Below are positions 2,377 through 25,127 of a stretch of DNA of 25,299 nt, piece by piece. The notes beneath the pieces were generated by a model. That model was not told the origin of the DNA and did no database searches. It saw only the letters and a program-made list of their open reading frames with translations. Made by a program: the position numbers and the translations under genes. The number at the start of each line of letters is the position of its first letter. Positions within the stretch are counted from its first letter, which is position 1. The DNA comes from a virus: positions 1 to 25,299 of the IMG/VR virus record IMGVR_UViG_3300024346_005995; one strand, 5' to 3'.

Positions 2377-2384
2377 TATAAATA
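2377..2384 (-). promoter_or_regulatory. TATTTATA element upstream of scaffold gene
   Basis: Perfect TATTTATA on the coding strand, 41 nt before the scaffold ATG, in context ATATTTATATAAGTA. One member of the putative late-promoter set discussed in the findings. Confidence 0.45.
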
Positions 2385-2386
2385 TA

Positions 2387-2415
2387 TTTGTAGTACGAAA
2401 AAAACATACTACAAA
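2387..2415. repeat. Inverted repeat between protease and scaffold genes
   Basis: Perfect 9-bp arms, TTTGTAGTA (2387-2395) and TACTACAAA (2407-2415), separated by an 11-nt A-rich loop. Each arm carries TTTG preceded by A/T-rich sequence, so both strands look a little like a Bacteroidota -7 box (TATATTTG at 2383-2390 on +, TTCGTTTG on -), but no -33 element is seen for either. It could be an operator or an mRNA hairpin; function unknown. Confidence 0.4.
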
Positions 2416-2437
2416 CGAATAAATATTAAGTTTTTTT

Positions 2438-3127
2438 TTATTTTCCTAAGAATGAGTTTAATTTATTCATTAAGTTTAGTGTCTTATTATCAGTGATAGT
2501 AGGTTCTTTCTTATCTATAGACTCAGCATATTTCTCTCTATCCCCCTCGTCTTGGAATAGATATGCCCCTGGTGTAGATGGTGATGATACTAAATCAAAA
2601 CAAACCATTTCGAAGTCATCTTGTACTTCATTATATTCTCCTGATTTCTTTAACGACCCAACACCTCTTGATGAGATACCTAATGTGACTCCGTGTAATA
2701 ATAAATTCGCTGCGATATCACCCATACACGTAATCTGTCCTGTAGACCTAAATGCTTCAGATGTTAATAATTCAACTTTACCCATTAATATTTTACCGTC
2801 CCACCAACACTCAGTAATACGGTGTGATGTTCTCTCTAAATCGACTAAAGAAGTTTCAGGGTGATTTAATTCACCTAACGCTCTTCCTTGTTCTATTAAT
2901 GTTTTATAGTTGTCGGTTTCTCTCTTTAGGATTCTTTCACCGTAGATTCTACCGTTTTTGTTTGGGGTATCGTATTTTTGAAGTACCGCATACAACACAA
3001 AGTTATCTTTATTCATCTCCTTCATCTCTCTGATAACTGATTTGTTTTCAGAAGGTTTTATATGACCAGCGTCATATTCTATAAGGATACCTCTTGTGTT
3101 CGTATCGTTTTGGTTCAATATTTTCAT
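2438..3127 (-). CDS. 21: Prohead maturation serine protease, T4 gp21-like
   Basis: Protease that cleaves scaffold and capsid propeptides inside the prohead. 229 residues, close to the T4 size (212). Visible family marks are NGRIYGERIL (about 59-68), GELNHPE with the likely catalytic His (about 85-91), ISSRGVGS with the likely catalytic Ser (about 152-159) and FDLVSSPSTPGAYLF (about 177-191). These fit the herpesvirus-assemblin-like fold of peptidase family U9/S80. It is followed by the scaffold gene with about 100 bp between. A TATTTATA element lies 22 nt upstream, and a terminator just beyond it (3195-3220) closes the preceding gene, so this gene probably starts its own transcript. Likely autocatalytic, as in T4; that part is family knowledge. 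Confidence 0.92.
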   Translation of the reverse strand: MKILNQNDTNTRGILIEYDAGHIKPSENKSVIREMKEMNKDNFVLYAVLQKYDTPNKNGRIYGERILKRETDNYKTLIEQGRALGELNHPETSLVDLERTSHRITECWWDGKILMGKVELLTSEAFRSTGQITCMGDIAANLLLHGVTLGISSRGVGSLKKSGEYNEVQDDFEMVCFDLVSSPSTPGAYLFQDEGDREKYAESIDKKEPTITDNKTLNLMNKLNSFLGK

Positions 3128-3149
3128 AATGTTACATATGTTTCTATAC

Positions 3150-3157
3150 TATAAATA
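3150..3157 (-). promoter_or_regulatory. TATTTATA element upstream of prohead protease
   Basis: Coding-strand ATATATTTATAGTATAG, 22 nt before the ATG and just downstream of the terminator of the preceding gene, where a new promoter is needed. Confidence 0.5.
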
Positions 3158-3194
3158 TATTAATACAAAGAAAAATTTTATAAAGTTTGAGCAT

Positions 3195-3220
3195 AAAAAA
3201 AGAGAGGACTAACCTCTCTT
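3195..3220 (-). terminator. Rho-independent terminator overlapping the end of the 145-aa gene
   Basis: On the minus strand, 8-bp stem AAGAGAGG/CCTCTCTT with a 5-nt loop followed by a T-run. The stem includes the last codons (Lys-Arg-Gly) of the upstream gene, and its TAG stop sits in the loop (3211-3209). Confidence 0.85.
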
Positions 3221-3646
3221 ACTTTTATAGTACGTAAAACTTGAATAGGGGATAACCGAATTATCGATTATATTCTCTATTATGTGATTAACATCTGTTT
3301 TAAAATCTACGTCTCTAATCTCATAACTACCATTTGTAAACAGTGTTATTTCACAGTTCATAAAAGACTTCTTACCTTTTTCTAATCCACTCGCCCTAAT
3401 ATCTAAATCAACAATAAACCTATCCTTTTTAAATTTATCTGTAATATTTAGAGTTTCTGTTAATTTACCTGATATCTTACGTTTTAAACCACCTATTACG
3501 GTATTCCAATTAGTTACGTTATTTGTTGGTTCAATCCAACAGGTTATTTTAGAGTATATTGATTTTAAGTTTTTTGAGTCTACAGTTCCGTACCCACATT
3601 TAAATTGTTCATTAACATTTAAATTTATGAATTTACCTGATTTCAT
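3209..3646 (-). CDS. Unknown protein, 145 aa, in head module
   Basis: Not recognised. A soluble protein of mixed composition, with a basic middle (GLKRKISGKLTETLNITDKF, about 49-68), alternating hydrophobic segments suggesting beta-strands, and a Tyr/Lys-rich C-terminus (SSFTYYKSKRG). No membrane segment or signal peptide. It lies between the 241-aa gene and the prohead protease, where T4 carries the small prohead-core genes 67 and 68, but I see no sequence resemblance to them. Its own transcript probably begins at a TATCTTTG box about 100 nt upstream (3749-3756) and ends at the terminator built into its 3' end. This promoter type differs from that of the adjacent structural genes, so a non-virion role is possible. 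Confidence 0.8.
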   Translation of the reverse strand: MKSGKFINLNVNEQFKCGYGTVDSKNLKSIYSKITCWIEPTNNVTNWNTVIGGLKRKISGKLTETLNITDKFKKDRFIVDLDIRASGLEKGKKSFMNCEITLFTNGSYEIRDVDFKTDVNHIIENIIDNSVIPYSSFTYYKSKRG

Positions 3647-3738
3647 ATATTATCATAATCTTTTCTTTTTATTGTCCCTGATAATATTATAGTAAAAATA
3701 ACCATACATGTCAAAAAACTTACTTTTTTTTAGAAGTA

Positions 3739-3771
3739 TTGTATAATACAAAGATATTCCGTATATTTATA
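3739..3771 (+). promoter_or_regulatory. Probable bS21 promoter
   Basis: TTG (3739-3741), 20-bp spacer, then TATATTTA (3762-3769), one base from the Bacteroidota -7 consensus TAnnTTTG with the usual spacing. The same stretch contains TATTTATA (3764-3771), the putative late element, 25 nt before the bS21 ATG. It may therefore belong to either class or serve both. Confidence 0.5.
3749..3756 (-). promoter_or_regulatory. Host-like -7 box (TATCTTTG) for the 145-aa gene
   Basis: Perfect TAnnTTTG on the minus strand, about 93 nt upstream of the 145-aa gene. No TTG is seen at the expected -33 distance. It overlaps the divergent bS21 promoter, so the two could interfere. Confidence 0.4.
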
Positions 3772-24041: not shown

Positions 24042-24043
24042 TA

Positions 24044-24128
24044 GGAGAAGTGGCAGAGTGGTCGAATGCACTGGTCTTGAAAACCAGCGTACTGCAAGGT
24101 ACCGGGGGTTCGAATCCCTCCTTCTCCG
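24044..24128 (+). tRNA. tRNA-Ser (anticodon UGA)
   Basis: Type II tRNA with a long variable arm: acceptor GGAGAAG/CTTCTCC, anticodon stem CTGGT/ACCAG around CTTGAAA (anticodon TGA), variable arm CGTACTGCAAGGTACC, T-arm GGGGG-TTCGAAT-CCCTC, discriminator G. It decodes UCA. Confidence 0.96.
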
Positions 24129-24136
24129 CATAGATT

Positions 24137-24159
24137 AAAGAGGGTAACCTCTTTTTTTT
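24137..24159 (+). terminator. Terminator of the tRNA cluster
   Basis: AAAGAGG-GTAA-CCTCTTT running into eight T, 8 nt after tRNA-Ser. Confidence 0.9.
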
Positions 24160-24168
24160 ATGCAATAT

Positions 24169-24176
24169 TTTTTATA
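24169..24176 (+). promoter_or_regulatory. TATTTATA-like element (TTTTTATA) upstream of the coiled-coil gene
   Basis: Seven of eight bases match, in context TTTTTATATTATTA, 21 nt before the ATG and just past the tRNA terminator. Confidence 0.28.
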
Positions 24177-24197
24177 TTATTATAAAAACATCTCATT

Positions 24198-24881
24198 ATG
24201 GCAGTGACATTTAACAAAGGAAACCAAGAAGGACAACCAAACCCAAACAATATTATTAAAAAATTAGTGGAGGTTATTCAGAAATTGGAACAAGAAATAA
24301 TTGACAATAAAAGAACAATTAACTCTAAAGTTAATGGTAATACTTTTTCGTTAACCGAAAAACTTAGAAGTTTCGACGATGTTGTTGAAAGTATTAACGT
24401 TAGAGTATCAACAATTGGAGAAAGAACCCCTGAAGAATTAACCACAGAACCTGTTAAGAGTTTAATTGTGGATGGATATAATTCTATTCAAATAAAATGT
24501 TCCGCAGAGATTTTAAATAAATCGACCGAACTAACATCTGTAGACCACTCGTTATCGACTAGAATTAATGAGGAAAAGGTTTTAAGAGAGAAAGACGTAT
24601 TATCATTAGCGACTAACTTAGTCAGCTTTGATGAAAGAAATAATATTGTTGTTTCCGAGTTAAAAAGTAGATTTGATGGTATAAACCCAACAAACCCTTC
24701 TTCAGACTCTTTAATGGGGTTATCACAAAAAATAGAAAATCTAACAACAGAAGTCACTAACTTACGTAATAATATTAATGTTGTTAGTGCCAAATTAGAT
24801 AAGGAAGTGTTTACAGAAATGAATAGTCGAATCAACTCTATTAAATCTATTGAGACAAGATTGTTAATGTTAGGTGGTTAA
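24198..24881 (+). CDS. Unknown coiled-coil protein, 227 aa
   Basis: Not recognised. Almost wholly helical with heptad-like hydrophobic spacing, in three stretches: about 18-70 (NIIKKLVEVIQKLEQEIIDN), 105-155 and 170-225 (LSQKIENLTTEVTNLRNNIN). These are separated by short Pro/Asn-rich breaks (GINPTNPSSD near 160-170). No signal peptide, membrane span or enzyme motif. It ends MLGG. Such elongated proteins are often fibre, whisker or tape-like parts of virions or lysis-control proteins; there is no specific evidence for either. It starts after the tRNA terminator and overlaps the 3' end of the convergent membrane-protein gene by 4 nt. Confidence 0.8.
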   Translation: MAVTFNKGNQEGQPNPNNIIKKLVEVIQKLEQEIIDNKRTINSKVNGNTFSLTEKLRSFDDVVESINVRVSTIGERTPEELTTEPVKSLIVDGYNSIQIKCSAEILNKSTELTSVDHSLSTRINEEKVLREKDVLSLATNLVSFDERNNIVVSELKSRFDGINPTNPSSDSLMGLSQKIENLTTEVTNLRNNINVVSAKLDKEVFTEMNSRINSIKSIETRLLMLGG

Positions 24882-25105
24882 TTCTTTTTTTTTATTGCGA
24901 TTAAAATCATCCCATAAACGTAACCTATCATTTGTGATAATATCAATATTTTAAAAATACTATTAACACCATAAAGTGTTTTCATAGTTAAATTACTGTG
25001 TTCTACTAAGAGAACCATAACTACTGAATTGATTTTACTTAAAAAAATAAGACCTAAAAACCCCCCACAAATAAAAGAGGTATATGGGTATTTTTTTTTA
25101 TTCAT
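24878..25105 (-). CDS. Small membrane protein, 75 aa
   Basis: Two probable membrane helices, about residues 8-32 (SFICGGFLGLIFLSK onward) and 50-70 (IFKILILSQMIGYVYGMILI), with Lys-rich ends (MNKKK and IAIKKKN). Size and layout would suit a holin, antiholin or superinfection-exclusion protein, but no family is recognised. A TATTTATA element lies 14 nt upstream on its strand, which supports it being a real gene, and its stop overlaps that of the coiled-coil gene. Confidence 0.62.
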   Translation of the reverse strand: MNKKKYPYTSFICGGFLGLIFLSKINSVVMVLLVEHSNLTMKTLYGVNSIFKILILSQMIGYVYGMILIAIKKKN

Positions 25106-25119
25106 GGATTTTTCTTTTA

Positions 25120-25127
25120 TATAAATA
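25120..25127 (-). promoter_or_regulatory. TATTTATA element upstream of the small membrane protein gene
   Basis: Coding-strand TTAATATTTATATAAAA, 14 nt before the ATG. Confidence 0.4.

Follow-up and report, generated by a model that had tools for sequence, protein, structure and literature searches.

Late promoters of phage T4 consist of an 8-bp TATA box, TATAAATA, at -10 with no -35 element, are AT-rich downstream, and serve late genes on both strands together with the sigma factor gp55 (PMC2988020). Similar boxes are found in T4-like cyanophages and vibriophages, with a variant at -13/-12 in Aeh1 (PMC2988020). Lake phages that encode the ribosomal protein bS21 have genomes of up to 331 kb, and their metatranscriptomes show bS21 and structural genes expressed together at a late stage (PMC9723584); the main text of that study mentions no promoter, motif or sigma factor, and no description of late-gene control in these phages was found in the literature searched. 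The window analysed here, the 25.3-kb virus record IMGVR_UViG_3300024346_005995, carries T4-like head genes (capsid, scaffold, protease, portal and terminase) and apparently comes from the same group of phages. An earlier note on this DNA had drawn attention to the octamer TATTTATA, repeated upstream of many of its genes, as a candidate phage late promoter. The strand bias of the octamer, the classes of genes that it precedes, and its near absence from an early-like gene block all support that reading, and TATTTATA is almost certainly a promoter that turns on late genes in a large family of Bacteroidota phages. The explanation that best accounts for the data as a whole, and which we consider likely, combines a T4-like late promoter with box TATTTATA, a gp55-type sigma factor, and leaderless mRNAs at genes where box and start codon are close together.

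Distribution of the octamer in the window and its relatives

The window contains 13 copies of TATTTATA, compared to 4.13 expected, a number that none of 100 dinucleotide shuffles reached. Ten of its 22 genes have the octamer within 60 nt upstream in the gene's own orientation, on both strands and with box-to-ATG gaps of 4-45 nt, against one gene for the reverse complement; first-order resampling of the same 22 upstream sequences gave a mean of 1.07 and a maximum of 6 in 2000. The ten perfect copies that the earlier note had listed are correct in coordinates, in distance to the ATG and in orientation. The extended pattern ATATTTATAnTA matches at seven window sites and, read backwards, at none, and a second copy of the octamer (25162-25169) lies further upstream of the small membrane protein gene. 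Of the two one-mismatch copies also put forward as boxes, TATTTATT at 4731-4738 is credible as a real variant, because orthologues of the gene that it precedes (3988-4713) carry exact boxes at a similar place (37/106, with a gap of 12 nt in most), whereas TTTTTATA at 24169 probably arose by chance.

Genome-scale counts were taken in relatives of the window (which by itself is genome G000), comprising about 140 distinct loci from scans with portal and terminase, in which open reading frames (ORFs) were called by a simple script as the longest ATG-started frames, so that some of the starts are bound to be incorrect. Among 1243 genes, TATTTATA lies within 60 nt upstream of 288 and its reverse complement of 19; the two orientations, whose equal frequency had been named in advance as evidence against a promoter, are therefore far from equal. 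The octamer and its one-base shift are the most frequent upstream 8-mers of all. Counting by gene family, which limits the effect of shared descent, gives 73 sense-only and 10 antisense-only families (p about 6e-13). The bias recurs at loci chosen via genes other than terminase and portal, with 123 sense and 40 antisense occurrences in one set (shuffle mean 18) and 119 and 11 in a second set (shuffle mean 14.5). The sense count of the T4 box TATAAATA in the relatives is close to background, while the same script recovered TATAAATA in the positive controls T4 and P-SSM2.

Promoter anatomy and two promoter classes

In profiles weighted by gene family, the 8-mer is preceded by A (or G or C, rarely T) and followed by an A-rich stretch that peaks 5-6 nt after it, with an A+T content of about 75-90% over the 10 nt downstream. 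The position of this A peak is compatible with a start site about one helical turn from the box. No -33/-35 element is evident in these profiles, with at most 0.1 bit at every position 18 to 36 nt upstream of the box. T4 late promoters are built in the same way (PMC2988020). Compared position by position, TATTTATA and TATAAATA differ at the two central bases only, and the octamer most naturally aligns with T4's box without reversal, TT standing in the middle where T4 has AA. It had been described as the reverse complement of the T4 box, a relation that is correct and incidental, because the box is nearly self-complementary. The further suggestion of a -7 box with its G changed to A fared worse: in the register that it requires (TATATTTA as a form of TAnnTTTG), the TA just upstream is not conserved (in the profile weighted by family, T stands at position -2 in only 41% and A at position -1 in 66%), and TATTTATA has neither the TTTG end nor the TTG at about -33 of Bacteroidota sigma-A promoters.

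In G002, a 310-kb relative, the box precedes 3 of the 104 genes between 41 and 101.5 kb and 44 of the 244 genes elsewhere (p 5e-5). The distribution of sigma-A-like promoters (TTG-N17-22-TAnnTTTG) is the reverse, at 22/104 genes in this interval and 8/244 elsewhere (p 3e-7), and these host-type promoters are strand-specific (15 vs 1 in the 41-61 kb block). The interval without boxes includes matches to tRNA nucleotidyltransferase, nucleases, glycosyltransferases, transposases and the like, and from its promoter type and gene content we infer that it is an early-like block. Besides head genes, boxes in G002 precede members of the endolysin, tail tube, tail fibre, tape measure and head-tail adaptor families. 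The same division is seen in the window, where dnaK, clpC and the M20 peptidase gene, for which the earlier note had already listed host-like boxes, have TTG-N17-22-TAnnTTTG in place of the box. Late timing of the box genes is suggested by these gene classes, with partial support from the published metatranscriptomes.

A candidate late sigma factor

A phage sigma factor had been proposed as a possible reader of the box, and the best candidate is a gp55-type protein encoded in the same phage species. G003, a 92-kb contig, is 98.8% identical to the window over its whole length and thus belongs to the same species; about 8 kb beyond the left edge of the window lies a gene for a 233-aa protein in which sigma region 2 is weakly recognisable and region 4 was undetected. 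This protein matches phrog_234, 'late sigma transcription factor', with an E of 4e-5, the same family that T4 gp55 matches at 3e-69. A profile of 39 relatives aligned by hhalign to seven annotated gp55 proteins gave an E of 2e-5, and the gp55-like profile matched the six-frame translated T4 genome at one place only, inside gene 55 (39600-40157; E 4e-4). Foldseek searches with a predicted model of the protein (pTM 0.42) returned sigma factors as top matches, with E 0.06 or worse, and lend weak support. Homologues are present in Flavobacterium phage immuto (gp118) and in phage Mel-JY01, labelled 'hypothetical protein' in public records, and both genomes use the octamer, with sense and antisense counts of 8 vs 3 in immuto and 6 vs 0 in Mel-JY01; in immuto the box lies 16-17 nt before terminase and portal, and 4 nt before a gene at L161:42475. 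The annotation of immuto suggests that gp47/gp46 adjoin the sigma gene, but scanning the neighbouring genes against PHROG returned nothing and this context was not used. As for the polymerase, the beta-subunit family PF00562 of multi-subunit RNA polymerases is absent from G001-G004, although all 14 control genomes matched; the T7-type family PF00940 gave no match, but no control matched either. From co-occurrence and homology, the gp55-like sigma probably reads TATTTATA.

Directly after the gp55-like gene lies a gene for a 124-aa protein (L280:10717-11091, plus strand, and equivalents), which in relatives is frequently preceded by a late box of its own, 3-5 nt from the ATG (51 sites); that it encodes a coactivator such as gp33 is a guess. 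The recorded host of PP395634 and Mel-JY01 (loci L360 and L370) is Microcystis, while their box, sigma, portal and bS21 resemble those of Bacteroidota phages, and the host label may be doubtful.

Gap distribution and predicted leaderless mRNAs

The gaps between box end and ATG are bimodal, and of about 296 sites none has a gap of 0-2 nt, 87 have 3-4 nt, nine have 5-9 nt, and the rest have at least 10 nt. An independent locus set gave 53 gaps of 3-5 nt, one of 6-9 nt, and the rest of at least 10 nt. About 20 gene families, unrelated to one another, include gaps of 2-5 nt. In the terminase genes, 58 of 59 boxes among 133 relatives lie 3 or 4 nt before the ATG. The residues downstream of this ATG are conserved in sequence that is otherwise unrelated, and in some lineages the terminase box directly follows a terminator hairpin.

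These observations suggest the following programme. Host sigma-A promoters (TTG...TAnnTTTG) would serve the early genes. At late times, a gp55-type phage sigma, with region 2 and no detectable region 4, would redirect host RNA polymerase to the lone, -10-like TATTTATA. This box would need no -33 element and would drive genes for structure, packaging, lysis and bS21 on both strands. Transcripts would begin about 5 (4-6) nt downstream of it, and short-gap mRNAs would for that reason have the AUG at their 5' end. Wherever box and ATG are only 3-5 nt apart, as in terminase and some 20 further gene families, the mRNA is thus predicted to lack a leader, its +1 being the A of AUG, and, judging by the gaps, many late mRNAs probably do. 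Other genes would have leaders of at least about 5 nt, and the sparse range of 5-9 nt would correspond to leaders too short to be useful. In one flavobacterium, only about 5.5% of mapped mRNAs are leaderless (PMC9723704). A more speculative extension, which we consider doubtful, is that the late switch is also a switch in translation mode: initiation by the gp55-like sigma would place the 5' end of many late mRNAs exactly at the AUG, and the bS21 of the phage, whose own gene is driven by a late box, would adapt host ribosomes to leaderless or short-leader messages.

Alternative explanations

The box might be read by another phage sigma, a sigma-A-like protein of 269 aa that contains both region 2 and region 4 and is encoded in G001 and G002. 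Relatives do encode this protein with full sigma-70 domains, and the loci around its gene also carry TATTTATA. However, immuto and Mel-JY01 have the octamer in use and no region-4 sigma match, and box promoters lack the -33/-35 element that region 4 of the 269-aa protein would read; this candidate was accordingly set back, and we regard it as unlikely. Host sigma-A, perhaps on a phage-modified RNA polymerase, could instead accept TATTTATA as a degenerate -7 box TAnnTTTG. The two are both 8-mers beginning with TA, and flavobacterial sigma-A boxes lie at -12 to -5 (PMC9723704), the place that TATTTATA would occupy. This is quite improbable given that host-type and TATTTATA promoters serve different gene blocks and that the latter have neither the TTG at -33 found in early promoters nor the TTTG end. 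The gene for the 269-aa protein itself is located at L163:1471-2280 (minus strand) in G002 and on L162 in G001, and has a relative in about 80 viral contigs.

Action in translation, as a ribosome-binding site or start-codon context, would fit the many boxes 3-5 nt before an ATG in a phylum described as having no Shine-Dalgarno signals (PMC6847099). It is very hard to reconcile with gaps that range from 3 to over 40 nt and are sparse at 6-9, the variability that had already been taken to favour transcription, with the near absence of the box from the whole early-like block, and with its occurrence, in some cases, directly after a terminator hairpin, and we give it little credence. Chance has even less to recommend it and can practically be dismissed: the spacers are very AT-rich, and copies occur inside genes of the window at 13588 and 22210, but shuffles fall far below the observed counts, as does the reverse complement, which has identical base composition, and the strand test refutes an origin in composition.

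Several observations nevertheless weigh against a late promoter read by a gp55-like sigma. The box-sigma link rests on co-occurrence and homology, and the homology is remote: three of four gp55-like members miss phrog_234, and single-sequence matches are weak (E 0.1 to gp55 in the PDB). LR756508 has the sigma and no such box in the stretch read. Searches for a gp45-type or DnaN-type clamp with PF02916 and PF02767 found no match in G001-G004, where a divergent clamp is possible, and the T4 activation mechanism is therefore unproven for these phages. In G002, some box genes are not clearly late (primase and homing endonuclease), and in G003, the window's own species, the bias is weaker, at 22 sense and 9 antisense; this moderate excess indicates that exact identity to the 8-mer is of imperfect predictive value where the DNA is so AT-rich. 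Finally, the major capsid protein gene and several structural genes have no exact box; they may be co-transcribed or driven by variants such as TATTTATT and TATTTATC.

Features of the window

The late boxes and, for contrast, the host-type promoters of the window are collected in Table 1.

Table 1. Late boxes and host-type promoters in the 25.3-kb window
Feature	Position	Strand	Gene served	Gap (nt)	Remarks
Late box TATTTATA	2377..2384	-	scaffold, 1070-2335 (-)	41	box in 31/49 of orthologous family
Late box	3150..3157	-	prohead protease, 2438-3127 (-)	22	47/76 relatives; phrog_207
Late box	3764..3771	+	bS21, 3797-3991 (+)	25	28/71 relatives; Ribosomal_S21
Probable variant late box TATTTATT	4731..4738	-	3988-4713 (-)	17	
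Late box	6597..6604	-	portal, 4757-6589 (-)	7	38/116 relatives; phrog_213
Late box	8428..8435	-	terminase large subunit, 6645-8423 (-)	4	predicted leaderless mRNA from AUG; box overlaps 3' end of gene 8427-9107
Late box	13377..13384	-	508-aa protein, 11805-13331 (-)	45	8/55 relatives
Late box	14437..14444	-	KTSC-domain protein, 14160-14417 (-)	19	KTSC Pfam match
Late box	22625..22632	-	lysozyme fusion, 19814-22609 (-)	15	Phage_lysozyme
Late box	22829..22836	+	papain-like protease, 22856-23635 (+)	19	Peptidase_C1
Late box	25120..25127	-	small membrane protein, 24878-25105 (-)	14	
Host-type sigma-A-like promoter TTG-N19-TATATTTG	16583..16612	+	clpC, 16645-18675 (+)		contrast
Host-type promoter TTG-N20-TATATTTG	18681..18711	+	M20 peptidase, 18730-19779 (+)		contrast
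Host-type promoter TTG-N20-TACTTTTG	16400..16430	-	dnaK, 14499-16358 (-)		contrast

The KTSC gene overlaps the start of a nucleotidyltransferase-like ORF on the same strand (13406-14299; the pair spans 13406-14417), the true start of which is probably further downstream. Two tRNA genes are also present, Thr(TGT) at 23682-23755 and Ser(TGA) at 24044-24129, and the region of the latter has an identical second copy in G003 (42732-42822).

Comparison with known systems

These phages are widespread across the metagenomes searched, and the present results outline a two-class transcription programme for them and give a name, that of a likely late sigma, to a protein recorded as hypothetical. They also indicate that the centre of a T4-type box is open to change, so that the specificity of sigma for box can be tested by comparison. 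From the 3-5 nt gaps, many late mRNAs of these phages are predicted to be leaderless, in a phylum without Shine-Dalgarno signals. Because box and sigma occur together in immuto, which has a cultured host, Flavobacterium sp. LMO8, these claims can be tested now.

In gene content, the closest described phages are the bS21 lake phages (Chen et al. 2022, PMC9723584), which share the block of terminase, portal, protease and capsid genes with bS21 on the opposite strand. Like the Bacteroidota sigma-A promoter (TTG / TAnnTTTG), the late promoter described here has an 8-mer starting with TA, at a predicted position of about -12 to -5; unlike it, the late promoter has no TTTG end and no -33 element, and serves another gene set. 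The late promoters of S-PM2, KVP40 and P-SSM2 are likewise variants of the T4 box in phages with gp55 homologues, but here it is the central two bases that vary, and no change in the centre has been reported for those phages. In Rhodothermus phage RM378 (L363), the upstream 8-mers TTATTTAA/TATTTAAA occur 12 times in the sense and 4 times in the antisense orientation, and are perhaps another late-box variant. With T4 itself, these phages share the lone 8-bp box, here at a presumed -10 position, the AT-rich downstream sequence, late genes on both strands and the presence of a gp55-like sigma. They differ in the central TT of TATTTATA in place of the AA of TATAAATA, in the lack of a detected gp45 clamp, in a sigma of 233 rather than 185 aa that is only remotely related to gp55, and in the spacing of box and start codon, which is at least 14 nt in T4 and as little as 3 nt here. 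The system is thus best regarded as a T4-type late system in variant form, and not as one of a new kind.

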